Shown here piece after piece: positions 3,097 to 10,761 of a stretch of 64,000 nt of DNA. The translations under genes and the position numbers were made by a program. The stretch lies in contig MPNM01000004.1 in assembly GCA_002239025.1 (NCBI GenBank), positions 62,001 through 126,000 of the forward strand. The letters are read 5' to 3'. The DNA is from Chloroflexi bacterium bin125. Its GTDB lineage: Bacteria > Chloroflexota > Dehalococcoidia > Bin125. The notes under the pieces were generated by a model. That model did not search any database. It had not been told where the DNA came from and saw nothing but the letters and a program-made list of their open reading frames with translations. Position 1 is the first letter of the stretch. The number at the start of each line of letters is the position of its first letter.

Positions 3097-4260
3097 ATGA
3101 CCACCCCAATCAACGGCTGGAACGACGCACGATTCGACGCCGTCCGCGAAGCGTTCGAGAGCAACTTCAGCGAGCGCGAAGAGGTAGGCGCGGCCGTCGC
3201 TATCTATCTCAATGGCAAACCCGTCGTTGACCTCTGGGGCGGCTGGTACGCACCGGACCAGGAGCGGGAATGGGACCGCAACACCCTCGTCAACGTGTAT
3301 TCCTCGACCAAAGGATTGCTTGCCTTCTGCACTCACCGACTGGTCGAAGAAGGCAAGCTCGACCTCGACGCGCCCGTGGCCGAGTACTGGCCTGAGTTCG
3401 CCGCCGCCGGCAAGGAATCAATCCCCGTCCGCTGGCTGCTTTGCCATAAGGCAGGAGTGGCGGCAATCTCAAAGCCGCTCGTGCAAGAAGACATGTACAA
3501 CTGGGAGACCATGACCACAGCCCTGGCCGAGCAAGAGCCGTGGTGGACTCCCGGAGAGAAGCACGGCTATCACGCGATGACCTTCGGCTGGCTCGTCGGA
3601 GAGGTCATCCGGCGAGTCGACGGCCGTTCGATCGGCCACTACTTTCGCGAGGAGTTTGCCGCGCCGCTTGGACTCGATGTGCACATCGGCACCGGTCCCG
3701 AGTTCGATGCCCGCATCTCGACCGTGATCGAACCACAGATCGCCGCTGAGTTCCCGCCCACCAGCGACCTCTTCGGCGACCCCGACAGCGTCGGCATCGT
3801 CGCGGTCATCAACCCTCCGGTCTTCAATCCCGGAGGCCCCGCAGTTGCCTCCCAGCGGGCCTGGCGAGCTGCCGAGATCCCCGCCGCCAACGGACATGCC
3901 ACCGCAAGGGGGTTGGCACGGATCTACGGCGGCGCGGCCAACGGCGGCCAGATCGACGGCATCCACCTGCTCAATCCCGAGACGATGGCGCAGGGCATCA
4001 CCGAGCAGGCCAACGGACCCGACACCTGCATCGGAATCGATACCCGCTTCGGCCTCGGCTGGGCACTGACCGGTGAGTCTACCCCGTACGGCCCCAACCC
4101 AAGAGCCTTCGGCCACCCCGGAGCCGGAGGCTCCCTCGGCTACGCCGACCTCGACGCCGGAATCGGCTTCGGCTACACCATGAACCGAATGGGAACCGAA
4201 GTCGCCCACGACATCCGAGCCGCCGCCCTGATCGACGCCCTGTACGAATCGTTGCAGTAA
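3097..4260 (+). CDS. Serine hydrolase, beta-lactamase/EstB family (copy 2)
   Basis: 387 residues, the same length as the gene at 574 and collinear with it. The SxxK motif is S69-S-T-K72 (NVYSSTKG). The GYHAMTFGWLVGEVIRR region and the C-terminal FGHPGAGGSLGYADLDAG block are conserved. GGAGG lies about 9 nt before the ATG. The middle region, about residues 205-260, differs most between the copies (PTSDLFGDPDSVG against NIIDVFGGPDSVG), as expected if substrate range has diverged. Probably a cytoplasmic esterase or amidase; exact substrate unknown. Confidence 0.9.
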   Translation: MTTPINGWNDARFDAVREAFESNFSEREEVGAAVAIYLNGKPVVDLWGGWYAPDQEREWDRNTLVNVYSSTKGLLAFCTHRLVEEGKLDLDAPVAEYWPEFAAAGKESIPVRWLLCHKAGVAAISKPLVQEDMYNWETMTTALAEQEPWWTPGEKHGYHAMTFGWLVGEVIRRVDGRSIGHYFREEFAAPLGLDVHIGTGPEFDARISTVIEPQIAAEFPPTSDLFGDPDSVGIVAVINPPVFNPGGPAVASQRAWRAAEIPAANGHATARGLARIYGGAANGGQIDGIHLLNPETMAQGITEQANGPDTCIGIDTRFGLGWALTGESTPYGPNPRAFGHPGAGGSLGYADLDAGIGFGYTMNRMGTEVAHDIRAAALIDALYESLQ

Positions 4261-4850: not shown

Positions 4851-7481
4851 CTAGACGCTCGCCAGATCCTCAGCGATTACTCCGTCGTCGGCCAGCCTTG
4901 AGATCTGCGATGAGCTCATGCCCAGAAGTTCTCCGAGGACGTAGTGATTGTCTTCTCCGTAGAGCGGCGCTCCCCGATCGATGGGGCCTCCCATGAATGG
5001 TGGGGTTTCGCTCCACTTGACGGGGACTTCTTTGGTTGGCCAGGGACCCATTTCTGAGTGCTCGACCTCGGTTAGCCAGTTGAGGTGGCTGAGCTGTGGA
5101 TCGGCCTCGACTCGGTCCTGGGCGTCCTGGCAGACTCCGGCGGCGACTCCGGCTTCCTGGAGGCGATGCATCAGGTCCCAGCGGTCGTGCTGGCGGGTCC
5201 ACTCTGTGATGTGCCGGTCCAGTTCGTCCTGATTGGCGAGGCGGTCGGCGAGGCTGGCGAAACGGTCACTGGTGGCCCACTCCGGGTCTCCCATGACCCG
5301 GCGCAACGACTGCCAGCCGGGCTCGTCGAAGCAGGCGAAGGCGATCCAGCGATCGTTGGACTCGACATCGTCGCGACACTTGTATGCGCCATGCGGCGCA
5401 GCCGGCTTGTAGGGCGAGCGGTTGCCGTAGCGCTGCCAGACCTTGCCGTTGGCCGACCACTCGAGCACCGAGGTGCCGTTCAGGTATATGCCCGCGTCGA
5501 CCTGCGAGGAATCGATCCACTGGCCCTTGCCGGTGCGGTCGCGGTAGTAGATGGCGGCCATCATTGCGTTGGCCAGGTTGTAGGCGCCGAACCAATCGAG
5601 ATAGCTGTAGCCCCAGCCGGCAGGCGCGTAGGGCTCAGGCAGGCCGGACAGTTCGGAGATCCCGGCGAAGGAGGCGGCAATCGGTCCAACGGTGCGGTAG
5701 CGACCGTAGACGCCGACCTGTCCCATGCCCGACTGCGAAAGATAGATGATGTCCGGCTTGATCTCCTTCATCACTTCATAGCCGAGACCCCAGCGCTCCA
5801 TCACGCCGGGCGAGAAGCCCTCGGCCACAATGTCGCTGACCGCGACAAGCTGCTTGGCAATCTCGAGGCCTCGCGGATCGCGCAGGTTGAGAGAGAGTCC
5901 GCGGTGTCCGGCGTGGAAGTCGTTGAACTGCCCGGATCGGTTGATCGTGGAGTTGTCGGGCGGCAACGGACCCTCGTTGACGCCGAGCGCCTGTCGAGCT
6001 GCCTTGCCGCCCTGCGGGAACTGCGCCATGCCGACGCGCAGGTCCATGTTCTGATGCCACTCGACCTTGATATCTTCAGCGCCCAGGGCGGAGAGGAATC
6101 GGGGTGCGCCGCCTGAGGCGAGCCACCAAGTGAAGTCGAGGATGCGCACGCCGTCGAGGGGGAAGGGCGTGCCCCAGCGGGAGAGGGACTCCCCCTCTTG
6201 GGGAGCTGCTACAGGCCGGCTGACGGGGCCCCCTCCGTCACTTCGTGACACCTCCCCCAAAGGGGGAGGCCCGAGCTCGGAGAGGATTTCGTCGTTGTGC
6301 TCGCCGAGCAGGGGAGCGCGCGGGCCGACCTTCCATGAGGTCTCGGACGACACCCACTTGCTTGACGTGTAGATGAACTCCGCTTCGTGTTCAGGATGTT
6401 CAACCTTGGAGAAGCTGCCTCGTTCCCACCAGTGAGGATCGAGAGCGTTCTCGTGCGGCTTGCGCAGCGGCGCCCAGAGGTGTCCGAGGTCCTGCGCGTC
6501 GCGCCAGGGCACGTCCTCGAAACGGAACTTGCGGATCAAGCGTTGCGAGACCTCCTGCAAATGCGCCGCTGTTTCGCCTCTCGACCTGGTGCTGGCTCCA
6601 CCCGTCTCTGGTGGCGTTTCCTTGAGGTCGGCGGACATGTCGTACTCGTCGAGGAAGTCGATCAGCGATTGCGAGCGTCCGCGAGGCAGCGCCATGACCC
6701 AGCGTCCGTCCTTCGTCGGACCGATCATCGGCAGCGGCGAGACGACTTCGGCCGCGTGACGGCAAGTCTGGCGGAAGTAGCGGGCGCGTCGGTAGACCCA
6801 GCTCATCAAGTCGAGCTCGGTGTTCTTGGCGACGGCGTCGTGGACGGCGGTGTGGAGCGTCTGGGCGCGGCCCGATCGGTGACGGTCAATCAACGCCGCG
6901 ATGGCATTCATGCAGGTCAGCTCGCCGGCGATGTGATAGGCCTGCCACATCTGCGGCGCAATCGGCGGAGTGTCGTAGGTGCCGTCGGGCTGCGGGTCGT
7001 AGCCGCAGTTCATCATCGGGCCACCCAGCGCCAGGTGCACGAGGTCTGAGCCACGAAAATCGGCCCACGGGCCCGAGTCGCCAAACGGCGACATCCGCGC
7101 GATCACGATGTCCGGATTCGCCTCGCGGATTGCGTCTTCATCTGGACCGTGGATATCGATATCCGTCTTGGGCCGCGCGTCTAGGAAGAGGTCGGCCGTC
7201 TCAAGCAGAACAAGCAGCGAGGAACGACCCTCCAGAGACTCAAGGTCCAGCGTGACCGAGCGCTTGCCGATGCTGTAGTGCCACCAATAGAGCGACCGCT
7301 CAGGGCCCGGTTCGTCCTCATAGAACGGGCCGATGTTCCGTGTCGAGCAGCCTTCGGGTGGCTCGACCTTGATCACGTCGGCGCCGAGACCAGCCAGCAG
7401 TTTGCCGGCGTAGGCGGAGACTTCATCTCCAATCTCAATCACGCGAACGCCGTCGAGGAGATGTGAGTCAGTGCTGGTCAT
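4851..7481 (-). CDS. CaiB/BaiF (family III) CoA-transferase, two-domain fusion
   Basis: 876 residues comprising two CaiB/BaiF domains: residues 8-402 (LLDGVRVIEIGDEVSAYAGK to LLGEHNDEILSELG) and about 440-870 (LDGVRILDFTWW onward). Each alone has the usual length of about 400. The catalytic Asp expected in the D-x-x-x-G region is D629 in domain 2 (YLDWFGAY), but the matching site in domain 1 appears to be Y182 (QAYHIAGEL), so domain 1 may be structural. These enzymes transfer CoA between acyl-CoA donors and carboxylic acids. Residues 404-440 are encoded by an intergenic-type repeat (6165-6272). The gene converges on the serine hydrolase at 3097. Substrate unknown. Confidence 0.9.
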   Translation of the reverse strand: MTSTDSHLLDGVRVIEIGDEVSAYAGKLLAGLGADVIKVEPPEGCSTRNIGPFYEDEPGPERSLYWWHYSIGKRSVTLDLESLEGRSSLLVLLETADLFLDARPKTDIDIHGPDEDAIREANPDIVIARMSPFGDSGPWADFRGSDLVHLALGGPMMNCGYDPQPDGTYDTPPIAPQMWQAYHIAGELTCMNAIAALIDRHRSGRAQTLHTAVHDAVAKNTELDLMSWVYRRARYFRQTCRHAAEVVSPLPMIGPTKDGRWVMALPRGRSQSLIDFLDEYDMSADLKETPPETGGASTRSRGETAAHLQEVSQRLIRKFRFEDVPWRDAQDLGHLWAPLRKPHENALDPHWWERGSFSKVEHPEHEAEFIYTSSKWVSSETSWKVGPRAPLLGEHNDEILSELGPPPLGEVSRSDGGGPVSRPVAAPQEGESLSRWGTPFPLDGVRILDFTWWLASGGAPRFLSALGAEDIKVEWHQNMDLRVGMAQFPQGGKAARQALGVNEGPLPPDNSTINRSGQFNDFHAGHRGLSLNLRDPRGLEIAKQLVAVSDIVAEGFSPGVMERWGLGYEVMKEIKPDIIYLSQSGMGQVGVYGRYRTVGPIAASFAGISELSGLPEPYAPAGWGYSYLDWFGAYNLANAMMAAIYYRDRTGKGQWIDSSQVDAGIYLNGTSVLEWSANGKVWQRYGNRSPYKPAAPHGAYKCRDDVESNDRWIAFACFDEPGWQSLRRVMGDPEWATSDRFASLADRLANQDELDRHITEWTRQHDRWDLMHRLQEAGVAAGVCQDAQDRVEADPQLSHLNWLTEVEHSEMGPWPTKEVPVKWSETPPFMGGPIDRGAPLYGEDNHYVLGELLGMSSSQISRLADDGVIAEDLASV
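6165..6272. repeat. Composite palindromic repeat (family C) inside a coding sequence
   Basis: CTCCCCCTCTTGGGGAG... and the facing arm CCGTCACTTCGTGACACCTC followed by CCCCAAAGGGGGAG match the intergenic composite repeat at 54179-54328 in order and orientation. Here the element is read in frame and encodes the whole linker between the two CoA-transferase domains (about residues 404-440, Gly/Pro/Ser rich). Confidence 0.7.
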
Positions 7482-7532
7482 GCAAAATCCTGGGCTTTGC
7501 TGTCTGCTTGGATGATATGAGCAGAACCGAGA

Positions 7533-8621
7533 CTAACCAGCCGACTCGAGCATCACTCTCACCTCTGGGGCGAGTTCGTAGCGTGTCGCTTTGCCTCGGC
7601 CCAGCCGAACCACCAGCGACGCCTCCGCGAGCGTATTGAGGTCGGTAAATGCTGTTGGCCGGGCGCACTTGGTAATTTTGGCGTATTGAGAGCTGGAAAG
7701 CTGACCGATCTCCTGCAGCGAGTTCAACCCAACTACTCGACGGTCGTTAATCGCGGACTGGAAGTTGGATAGCAGTGCGAGTCGTCGTTGCTGAAACGTG
7801 TTCGCCCGAGCCTCGAGTTGTCGAACTGCGTCGGCGATCACTTCGGTGTGAAAGCGGACAAAATCGGTGACATCGACCTGCTCGGCGAATGTCGTTCCCT
7901 GTGAGTTCTGCAACGCCTCAAAGTACTCGCTGCGGCGTCTCCGCATAACGCTGCTCGGTGAGATCATTCCGTCGACATCGGACTGGCGTATCGCCAGAAT
8001 CAGATCCGCGAGCAGCCGCGCGATCCGTCCGTTGCCATCGACGAATGGCCGAATACTGAGCAAGCCAAAGTGTGCTTGGGCTGCGGCAATCTCAGGCTCT
8101 TCGTGACGCAGCCATTGTCCAATCTGAGAGATGAATCCTGACATCAGCCCCGCCACCCACGTTGGCGGTGGACCGGTGTATGTAAACCGCCGAGCAGCCG
8201 TCTTAGTGATCCTCGAACTGCCCCGGCGGAATCGCCCAGCCAGTTCCGGTCCTCGGCCTGGCAAACTCTCAAACAAGATGGTGTTCAGCATCCGCAATAG
8301 GCCGACGTCAACCTCGATCGTCTCATCACTTGACAGACTTTTGACAAGGCGATGTGCACGTTCCGCATTGCGCGCTTCTCTGCGCTGGTGATCGAATGAA
8401 GAGTCATCGAGCGTGGCAAGTTGAACAGTCGCCAAGTCGAGTGGATCCTCTTTGAACGACACAGAACCATGAGCGCTTCGAATTCGCGCGTGGCGACGAA
8501 AAGAGTCTTCAAACCCGTCCGGAACCATGTTCCGAGCAATCTCGCTGCGTTGCCGGATGAAAGCCAAGTGTTGATCGGTCAAATCGTCGGCACGTCGTGC
8601 GAGCACGAGTTGCATCGGCAT
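7533..8621 (-). CDS. Fic/DOC-family protein with a non-canonical active site
   Basis: About 362 residues from the ATG at 8621, which follows GGAG by 9 nt; a longer frame reaches 8690 without a ribosome site. The layout is that of Fic proteins with an N-terminal helical part, a Fic core (residues 100-230) and a C-terminal winged-helix-like domain (about 285-355). The Fic motif reads R191-P-F-V-D-G-N-G-R199 where the family has H-P-F-x-[DE]-G-N-G-R, so the catalytic His is Arg. Fic enzymes move AMP or other phosphate-linked groups onto proteins; this one may be inactive or have changed chemistry. A perfect palindrome upstream (8659-8682) could be its own operator. Confidence 0.85.
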   Translation of the reverse strand: MPMQLVLARRADDLTDQHLAFIRQRSEIARNMVPDGFEDSFRRHARIRSAHGSVSFKEDPLDLATVQLATLDDSSFDHQRREARNAERAHRLVKSLSSDETIEVDVGLLRMLNTILFESLPGRGPELAGRFRRGSSRITKTAARRFTYTGPPPTWVAGLMSGFISQIGQWLRHEEPEIAAAQAHFGLLSIRPFVDGNGRIARLLADLILAIRQSDVDGMISPSSVMRRRRSEYFEALQNSQGTTFAEQVDVTDFVRFHTEVIADAVRQLEARANTFQQRRLALLSNFQSAINDRRVVGLNSLQEIGQLSSSQYAKITKCARPTAFTDLNTLAEASLVVRLGRGKATRYELAPEVRVMLESAG

Positions 8622-8658
8622 TTTCGCATACTCCAAATACATGTTCGATAAAACAAAT

Positions 8659-8682
8659 CGACATGCGCAAATGCGCATGTCG
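8659..8682. promoter_or_regulatory. 11-bp perfect palindrome upstream of the Fic gene
   Basis: CGACATGCGCA, two A residues, then TGCGCATGTCG: 11-bp arms with no mismatch. It lies 38-61 bp before the chosen Fic start, a normal operator position. The Fic protein has a C-terminal winged-helix-like segment, so autoregulation is plausible but unproven. Confidence 0.5.
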
Positions 8683-8714
8683 GGATACACGGATGATTGC
8701 GGTAATGCGTGCTC

Positions 8715-9923
8715 CTATGCCCTAGGCAGACCTAGCCCTCTTGTGGCGATGACGTTTCGCTGGACTTCTGAGGTTCCGCCTCGGATAGTGGCTGGGACCA
8801 TGCCGACGAAGTTTCTTGTGAACGTGCTCGCCGGAGGGGAATCGCTCCAGGTTTGGGCGTGCAGGCCGAAGACCTTGGTCGCGGTCAGCGCAAGTCTCTG
8901 ACTCAGCTCTGAGGCGAACAACTTCGCTGTGGAGGCCTCATAGTTTGGGACGAGTCCTGACGACTGCATCGAGATGATGCGGAAGCTGAATTGGTACAGC
9001 GTCTCGGTTTCCACCCAGCGATCAACGATTTCCTGACGCAGTTCAGGCGTGACTCGCTCTCGGGCGCCCTGGTCGTTGTTCTGGATGTGCGTGATCAACT
9101 GTCGGAGTTGTCGACGGGCGGCGACTGCGCCCCCGATGTTCGAGCGCTCGAAGTCGAGCAGCGTCATGCCGACGTACCAGCCGCGATTCAGCTCACCGAC
9201 GAGATTGCTGGCCGGGATTCGCACATCCTCGAAAAAGACCTCATTGAAGTAGTGGTCTCCGTTGATGTTGATCAGCGGTCGCACGGTGATGCCCGGCGTC
9301 TTGATGCTGTCAATCATGACAAAGGAGATACCGCGATGCTTGGGCGCGTCGGGATCGGTGCGGACCAGTGCGAACATCGCGTCGGCGGTGTGCGCGGCCG
9401 AAGTCCAGATCTTCTGCCCATTGATGATGAAGTCATCGCCATCACGCACGGCGCGGGTCGTGAGCGAGGCGAGGTCGGAGCCGGAGCCCGGCTCGCTGTA
9501 GCCCTGCGCCCAGGTCACTTCACCGTTGAGAATCGGCGGCAGGTACTGCTCCTTCTGCTCGTCCGAGCCGTGGACGATCAGGGTCGGTCCGAGCATGTTC
9601 ACGCCCGAGCCTCCGACGCCTGGAGCGCCCGACTCGGCCAGTTCCTGGTTGAAGATGAACTGTTCCATCGGCGAGAGACCGCCGCCGCCGTACTCGGACG
9701 GCCAGTGCGGCGCGACCCAGTGACGCTCGGCGAGCGCGGCGTGCCAGTCGACTGCGGCCGACAGCGCAAGCGGGTCATCCGACTTGCGGTCGTTTTCCCA
9801 AGCTCGTTCCGGCATCGCACCTCGAGCAGCGAAGTCGCGATAGCGCTGGGGCAAGCGCTGGCCGATCAGGGTCGCGACTTCGTCGCGGAAGGCGGCTTGT
9901 TCCGGTGTGTCTCGCCAATCCAC
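8715..9923 (-). CDS. Acyl-CoA dehydrogenase family protein
   Basis: 402 residues, the normal length. Visible family blocks are an N-terminal helical domain (WRDTPEQAAFRDEV), the FAD/substrate loop WAQGYSEPGSGSDLASL (about residues 140-156), the beta-domain IINGQKIWTSAAHTAD, and the C-terminal GGTSEVQRNVIATRGLGLP block. It removes two hydrogens from an acyl-CoA to give the enoyl-CoA, passing electrons to electron-transfer flavoprotein. The substrate is not determinable. It is the last gene before Fic in the minus-strand run and would pair functionally with the nearby CoA-transferase. Confidence 0.93.
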   Translation of the reverse strand: MDWRDTPEQAAFRDEVATLIGQRLPQRYRDFAARGAMPERAWENDRKSDDPLALSAAVDWHAALAERHWVAPHWPSEYGGGGLSPMEQFIFNQELAESGAPGVGGSGVNMLGPTLIVHGSDEQKEQYLPPILNGEVTWAQGYSEPGSGSDLASLTTRAVRDGDDFIINGQKIWTSAAHTADAMFALVRTDPDAPKHRGISFVMIDSIKTPGITVRPLININGDHYFNEVFFEDVRIPASNLVGELNRGWYVGMTLLDFERSNIGGAVAARRQLRQLITHIQNNDQGARERVTPELRQEIVDRWVETETLYQFSFRIISMQSSGLVPNYEASTAKLFASELSQRLALTATKVFGLHAQTWSDSPPASTFTRNFVGMVPATIRGGTSEVQRNVIATRGLGLPRA

Positions 9924-9988: not shown

Positions 9989-10639
9989 CTAGAGTCCTGG
10001 CACCGCAAGCGCGACTGCGGCCTGAATCTCGTCCAGCGTCCGGTTGACGCTCATCCCGATCAGGTCCATACGAGCGAGCTGCTCGACACGGGTTTCAACG
10101 CGCTCCAGGTACTCGCGTGGCAGCAGCAGTTCAAGCAAGCGGCTGGCTCGGGCGAGGCCGATCAGCGCGACGACGTCCGGCTCGGGGATCTCATCGGAAA
10201 GCAGCGTGTCGATCAACCGGCGCTGCACATCGCGCACAACCTGAGGGTCGGTCGGCGGGAACTTCTCCGACTTCAGCACGATCAATCGGCGGCCGGCCTC
10301 GCGGTGAATGATATTGCGATCGAGGAGGTCCTCGATCACCTGTTGTCGCAGCACGAGCGAGTAGCGTGCGATCTCAGAGATCCAGTACGAGATTGGCTGG
10401 TTGGGAGGACCAGAGTTGATCTGGTGCAGCACGCTATCGAGCAGCGGATTGCCGGTCGGGTCGGCGGAGATAATGAAGAGCCGATTGGGGTCAGTGTCGA
10501 TTCGGTTCAGGAATGACAAATCAAGCAAGGAAGCCCCGGCGATGGCGTAGTCCAGCCGCCCGTCGTACGGGCGGTCGAGCGCGCCGTCTTCGCCCAGGCC
10601 CAGCAGAACGATCTGATCGCTGATAGAGAGTTCGGGCAT
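9989..10639 (-). CDS. GPP34 (GOLPH3/Vps74-like) family protein
   Basis: 216 residues from the ATG at 10639, preceded by AAGGGG at 7 nt; an in-frame ATG at 10654 has no such site. The N-terminus ELSISDQIVLLGLGEDGALD then RLDYAIAGASLLDLSFL matches the bacterial GPP34 family, whose eukaryotic relative GOLPH3 binds phosphatidylinositol-4-phosphate at the Golgi. The role in bacteria is unknown; many actinobacterial genomes carry copies. It is mostly helical with no membrane segment. It sits between the dehydrogenase genes with gaps of about 65 and 120 bp, so co-transcription is uncertain. Confidence 0.85.
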   Translation of the reverse strand: MPELSISDQIVLLGLGEDGALDRPYDGRLDYAIAGASLLDLSFLNRIDTDPNRLFIISADPTGNPLLDSVLHQINSGPPNQPISYWISEIARYSLVLRQQVIEDLLDRNIIHREAGRRLIVLKSEKFPPTDPQVVRDVQRRLIDTLLSDEIPEPDVVALIGLARASRLLELLLPREYLERVETRVEQLARMDLIGMSVNRTLDEIQAAVALAVPGL

Positions 10640-10761
10640 CACTGTCCCCTTCATCTAGTGGCTCTATCGATACCTCGACACCGACTCTGGCGGTATCGCA
10701 GATAGAGCAATCCTAACCGACATCCAACGGCCCTCAGTGTTGATAGTGCATCGCTGCTGAC

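Follow-up and report, generated by a model that had tools for sequence, protein, structure and literature searches.

The window analysed here, a 64,000-nucleotide stretch of the genome of Chloroflexi bacterium bin125, carries a gene for a Fic protein in which both the catalytic histidine of the Fic motif and the inhibitory glutamate of class II Fic proteins have been lost, with the remainder of the protein preserved. This double loss, which is found again in other Fic lineages, is seen together with a predicted SoFic fold, a palindrome at the gene's promoter, a variable genomic site and the recurrence of the His-to-Arg change elsewhere. Our leading reading, which we hold tentatively and at somewhat less than even confidence, is that the gene encodes an AMPylation-dead, SoFic-type class II protein (a pseudo-Fic) that has been retained to bind DNA and regulate its own gene. 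Nearly as likely, the gene is a disarmed relic of a toxic defence gene.

The gene was found on the minus strand, where the open reading frame spans 7533-8690, with stops on the plus strand over the interval of the gene. Translation likely begins at the ATG at 8621, which has a GGAG 9 nt upstream (8631-8634), and both the coordinates (7533-8621) and the residue number (191) given in an earlier note on this DNA fit that start. The same note had reported an arginine, encoded by CGG at 8049-8051, in place of the catalytic histidine, with the rest of the motif intact, and reading of the minus strand confirmed both: the motif runs R191-P-F-V-D-G-N-G-R-I-A-R202, so that GNGRxxR is present and the histidine of HPFx[D/E]GNGRxxR, by which Fic AMPylases are recognised, is not. 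The protein nevertheless belongs to the Pfam Fic domain family by score (PF02661; 7.9e-14, 52.7 bits, curated cut-off 24). The features of the locus are collected in Table 1.

Table 1. Features of the fic locus and its flanks, in positions of the window.
Feature	Position	Strand	Basis or remark
Fic protein gene, 362 aa	7533..8621	-	ORF map, Pfam, AlphaFold2 model
Codon CGG, Arg191, at the position of the catalytic His	8049..8051	-	sequence read
Fic motif RPFVDGNGRIAR, residues 191-202	8016..8051	-	translation
Former class II inhibitory motif S53-V-S-F-K57-E58; Glu replaced by Lys57 (8451-8453)	8448..8465	-	alignment
Predicted C-terminal winged-helix domain, residues about 293-350	7572..7745	-	Pfam, predicted model
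Candidate operator, perfect palindrome 11 + 2 + 11 (24 bp)	8659..8682		38-61 nt upstream of start codon
Acyl-CoA dehydrogenase, core gene flanking the variable site	8715..9923	-	Pfam, comparison across genomes
CoA-transferase family III protein, core gene, other flank	4851..7481	-	Pfam, comparison across genomes

To place the two changes, ten relatives, 25-47% identical to the window protein and drawn from whole genomes in its order and class, were aligned with it. Across the class, 11 of 393 genomes, the source genome included, matched the window protein at 1e-25 or better, and the remaining ten held 11 proteins, of which the partial copy L016 was left out; a weaker match, L008 (1.9e-13), which has the histidine, also stands outside the alignment. 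All ten aligned relatives have histidine at the catalytic site, an outcome that the earlier note had named as one that would refute it. The arginine is thus private to the window lineage within its family, which removes the idea of a shared change and leaves the observation of Arg191 itself unaffected. The earlier account was incomplete in a further respect, as it had caught the change from histidine and missed the loss of the inhibitory glutamate. This region reads SVSFKED in the window protein and SVSIEGN in its nearest relative, L005, and the glutamate of the class II motif (S/T)xxxE(G/N) is present in 10 of 10 relatives and replaced by lysine in the window protein (SVSFKE). The position of this former motif and the fold match class II, the motif itself being broken.

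The ten relatives agree at 34 invariant columns, and at two of these, the inhibitory glutamate and the catalytic histidine, the window protein departs from them. Other family sequences given the same treatment showed 0-4 departures each among 32-36 columns, all at other places, and for them the glutamate and histidine columns cannot count since the window protein is then among the references. Were two departures to fall at random on 34 columns, exactly this pair would be expected with a chance of 1 in 561, a figure to be read with the glutamate having been noticed post hoc. Exact-pattern counts in the class gave HPFxDGNGRxxR in 98 of 383 genomes and the RPF form in 1 of 383, the source genome itself, which has three further Fic genes, all with the histidine and 26-34% identical to the window protein. 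When genome contigs were scanned with the window protein for close relatives, 61 pattern stretches came up, and none was confirmed as a relative. Within the family the arginine form is known from one sequence, with no close Arg relative, and this weighs against the autoregulatory reading.

Natural loss of Fic motif residues with retention of the fold has precedents in the portions of the literature consulted. The motif histidine is glutamine in Doc clade D2 (PMC4454073), in C. fetus Fic1-Fic2 and in other altered Fics the role is that of a partner or is otherwise changed (PMC5651007), and the Bep proteins of Bartonella have altered Fic motifs (PMC8401265). The window Fic resembles Doc D2, C. 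fetus Fic2 and the Beps in this respect; as far as these excerpts go, C. fetus Fic2 and many Beps keep the histidine and have other residues changed, whereas the window Fic loses it. A class of Fic proteins in which His-to-Arg is combined with a lost class II inhibitory glutamate was not found in the literature searched, which covered few subscription journals.

The fold of the window protein was predicted by AlphaFold2 (mean pLDDT 90.6, pTM 0.89) using an alignment, A1, that includes 33 Arg-type proteins found by the motif scan described below. The best PDB matches of the model were SoFic structures (Foldseek 4.8e-12), and VIA-align, applied to only those chains top-ranked by Foldseek, superposed model residues 1-361 on full-length SoFic with a Z of 29.7 (337 residues, 3.4 A). 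The PADLOC SoFic model, a broad one that matches 34 of 34 proteins of A1, matched the window protein at 6.5e-31, and profile and fold together place it with SoFic. It shares with SoFic/Sofic (Shewanella SO_4266, E. coli H397) the same full-length fold of a Fic and a C-terminal domain, with the motif arginine and Tyr233 conserved, and is unlike them in that the catalytic histidine is arginine and the inhibitory glutamate is lysine. At the C-terminus the helices and strands of the model fit a winged-helix domain; the DIP2311-like_C match there (26.2 bits) falls just below the Pfam cut-off of 27, which counts against the autoregulatory reading. In the available text of PMC12249575, Sofic is an abortive-infection AMPylase, and E. 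coli Sofic mutated at the His is non-toxic. Phage defence through AMPylation is unlikely for the window protein, as its catalytic residue is lost. No AS1-like small gene was recognised by eye among the short ORFs near the window fic.

Palindrome arms like those upstream of the gene arose at the window promoter in 0 of 5000 shuffles. Across the family, palindromes with arms of at least 8 were found in 6 of 11 fic promoters (0.28 expected) and differ in sequence from one another; a 12-mer of the window palindrome, GCATTTGCGCAT, is present in L006 (0 of 300 shuffles). Against a role in autoregulation, the 24-bp palindrome reads also as a terminator-like hairpin on the minus strand, a second copy was not found in the source genome within 3 mismatches, and 5 of the 11 family promoters, that of the nearest relative L005 included, are without such a palindrome. 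A sigma-70-like promoter was not found at the palindrome region.

The closest functional parallels are CccR of Yersinia pseudotuberculosis and CbFic2 of Coxiella burnetii, described in the available parts of their reports as DNA-binding class II Fic-HTH proteins (PMC9755527, PMC10628234). CccR is a Fic-wHTH toxin that represses its own promoter via inverted repeats, with a separable toxicity (PMC9755527). The window Fic is like both in its class II architecture and predicted C-terminal HTH, and like CccR in having a palindrome at its own promoter (PMC9755527). It differs in that CccR and CbFic2 are, according to the same excerpts, active AMPylases with the histidine and glutamate, whereas the window Fic is without both and its DNA binding is a prediction.

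The junction between the two core genes (7481-8715) was compared in 14 genomes, the source genome included, in which both genes lie near one another on one contig. The cargo was found to vary: G014 has a Fic with the histidine, 48% identical to the window protein; G015 has both a His-type Fic and a large helicase; G004 has a large helicase that includes a restriction-endonuclease-like domain; G009 has a large frame similar by eye to the G004 helicase; and G012 has a 386-residue frame with no Pfam match and weak PADLOC matches only. The junction was geneless (73-147 bp) in 8 of the 14 genomes (G001, G002, G003, G006, G007, G008, G010 and G013), of which G013 has a Fic relative elsewhere in its genome. 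In six empty junctions compared by eye the palindrome sequence was absent, and it thus probably arrived with the insert. For the helicases in G004 and G015 the PADLOC matches are PDC-S37 and Hhe and the Pfam matches DUF4011, AAA_11, AAA_12 and MTES_1575, and on these model names the site is a candidate defence hotspot. The empty junction of G006 retains a short stretch (L187; G006:C170:1000-1700) like the start of the G004 helicase by eye, which looks like a remnant, as if the helicase had been deleted from that genome.

Between the source genome and G014, seven flanking genes gave a dS of 0.83-1.52, whereas fic was saturated (pS 0.741, rough omega 0.14), which makes the fic copies older than the flanks. 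Fast decay after loss of the histidine, considered for the 47% identity to the nearest relative, was rejected on these grounds. The GC3 of fic is 0.62, compared to 0.73-0.80 in nine neighbour genes. Taken together, the site comparison, dS and GC3 indicate that fic is exchanged cargo and not a vertically inherited ortholog. Elsewhere in the neighbourhood, two similar neighbouring 387-aa genes on the plus strand (574-1737 and 3097-4260) look by eye like serine hydrolases and have G014 counterparts of 86-87% identity, and a GPP34 (Golgi phosphoprotein 3 family) gene at 9989-10654 on the minus strand (PF05719, 5.2e-38) adjoins the acyl-CoA dehydrogenase.

The His-to-Arg change was found to recur well outside this family. 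The pattern RPFxDGNGR occurred in species genomes at no fewer than 117 loci, at least 68 of them Fic proteins (family HMM, 1e-8) from many phyla by record titles; the pattern demanded an aspartate before GNGR and CGN codons for both arginines, and the counts are lower bounds for one motif form. From the 68 Fic loci listed, 54 were read (at least 250 aa, with at least 150 aa before the motif) and 14 were dropped. Among these listed matches, the inhibitory glutamate was present in 27 of 54 readable RPF proteins and another letter or a gap stood there in 27, compared to glutamate in 61 of 61 His controls (Fisher 1.3e-11). The controls, 61 used from 65 ORFs at 64 loci (30 each from the class and from the Arg proteins' own genomes, and four others), are a sample of matches in which two rows repeat others and four repeat family members. 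This is the pattern expected if autoinhibition matters only in an active enzyme, the glutamate being lost in RPF and not in HPF proteins. Where an RPF protein had a relative with histidine at 40% identity or more, glutamate was found in 14 of 16 cases, and where it had none, in 11 of 34 (among the matches listed; Fisher 6e-4), which fits a histidine lost first. Four doubtfully aligned proteins (L123, L022, L034 and L065) were kept out of the cluster, 40%-relative and tree counts and remain in the 27 of 54.

On a quick tree of 122 rows, which carries a long-branch warning, the His/Arg label changed 24 times (17 forced by supported branches) and glutamate was lost 13 times (12 forced). Over 17 supported independent pairs, glutamate loss accompanied arginine in 5.5 on average and the reverse never (sign test, median p 0.0625, range 0.008-0.125). 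Judged by counts the coupling is thus very strong, while strict phylogenetic pairing leaves it suggestive only, and the latter tempers the autoregulatory reading.

A whole-sequence search for relatives of one Arg-type protein, L055, covered 150 genomes of its phylum and was positive in 11, the query's own included. Of the 11 proteins, eight have arginine, one valine and two histidine at the catalytic site (nine read by script, two by eye), and glutamate is kept in both His and four of the eight Arg proteins and missing from the remaining four and from the valine protein. As the clade is mostly Arg, loss of the histidine is long-lived there and not only an artefact of searching for arginine. 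Two L055 relatives depart further, L257 with valine at the His site and arginine at the Glu site, and L261 with RPFAEENGR and without the inhibitory helix sequence. Several RPF sets share a letter at the inhibitory site, namely alanine in L043, L046 and L107 and in L025, L073, L088 and L121, and aspartate in L039, L083, L099 and L104; none of these three sets has a His member at 40% identity among the proteins compared, which makes them candidate long-lived Arg-Fic lineages. At the other extreme, L021 and L245, two Fic proteins of one genome (G420), are 92% identical where aligned, RPF in one and HPF in the other, both with the glutamate, and judged by sequence this is a fresh His-to-Arg pair.

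If the gene has been retained as an autoregulator, a SoFic-type Fic would have been acquired horizontally and its AMP transfer switched off by the change of the catalytic base to Arg191. The inhibitory glutamate, idle once AMP transfer had gone, may then have been lost to Lys57; we propose that it was lost as autoinhibition was no longer needed. The protein would have kept its fold, the GNGRxxR loop that binds phosphate and the predicted winged helix at the C-terminus. It would most likely bind the 24-bp palindrome that precedes its gene, and a nucleotide might still sit as effector in the inactive pocket. Such a protein would be maintained by selection.

Nearly as likely for the window gene is that a toxic defence gene arrived at the site, was silenced by missense at the catalytic histidine and then let its glutamate drift, with no present function. 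The locus lends itself to this, being mobile cargo at a variable site that is absent from 8 of the 14 readable genomes, with the low GC3 of fic perhaps reflecting a recent arrival. For Sofic, the available text calls autoinhibition leaky and the wild type hard to clone, its authors having failed in their vector (PMC12249575), and close relatives with histidine exist for many RPF proteins elsewhere, as recent inactivations would have. This reading has to contend with RPF lineages that are without His relatives over long divergence, with the 8 of 11 Arg proteins in the L055 clade, and with the state of the gene itself, which has no stop or frameshift in 362 codons and keeps 32 of the 34 family-invariant columns. 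The earlier note had argued on the intact motif that the change is not simple decay, and on this larger body of evidence decay is indeed unlikely to be the whole story.

A good deal less probable is a changed chemistry or a partner role, in which Arg191 would serve another transfer, a deAMPylation-like or a binding reaction, or the protein would be an inactive partner of active Fics. GNGRxxR is kept in the window Fic, and the final motif arginine, which lay outside the scan pattern, in 53 of 54 RPF proteins among the matches listed; the three other Fic genes with histidine in the source genome could supply partners, and C. fetus Fic1-Fic2 and other altered Fics are precedents in the portion of the source consulted (PMC5651007). 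However, class II deAMPylation requires the inhibitory glutamate according to the accessible text of PMC10628234, and this is lost in the window Fic; the locus suggests no substrate or partner, and the Fics of the source genome are distant (26-34% identity). The earlier note had offered altered chemistry or a regulatory role, and of these the regulator fits better, with a predicted winged helix and a putative operator in its favour, while positive evidence for altered chemistry was not found. A sequencing or assembly artefact at the motif is very improbable even in a 66-contig assembly, as two or more substitutions separate CGG from either histidine codon, CAC or CAT, and a single base error cannot explain Arg191, the inhibitory motif differs at three consecutive codons (KED versus EGN), the frame is open throughout and the same double state is found in many other assemblies.

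Returning to the autoregulatory reading, a wider form of it is possible but on present evidence rather unlikely as a whole: that His-to-Arg Fics are widespread, repeatedly evolved pseudo-AMPylases, Fic-wHTH toxins freed of the glutamate and persisting as nucleotide- and DNA-binding regulators or as partners of active Fics, with the window gene one instance, located where related genomes carry other cargo, candidate defence helicases among it. A Fic gene is usually taken to encode an AMPylase; if the Arg class is a recurrent one, AMPylation would be absent from many genes now annotated as Fic defence genes. The coupling of the two losses (glutamate in 61 of 61 His proteins, gone from 27 of 54 Arg proteins among the matches listed) offers an evolutionary argument that autoinhibition restrains AMP transfer and that catalytic loss came first, and the role of a Fic-wHTH defence protein once AMPylation has gone becomes directly testable.
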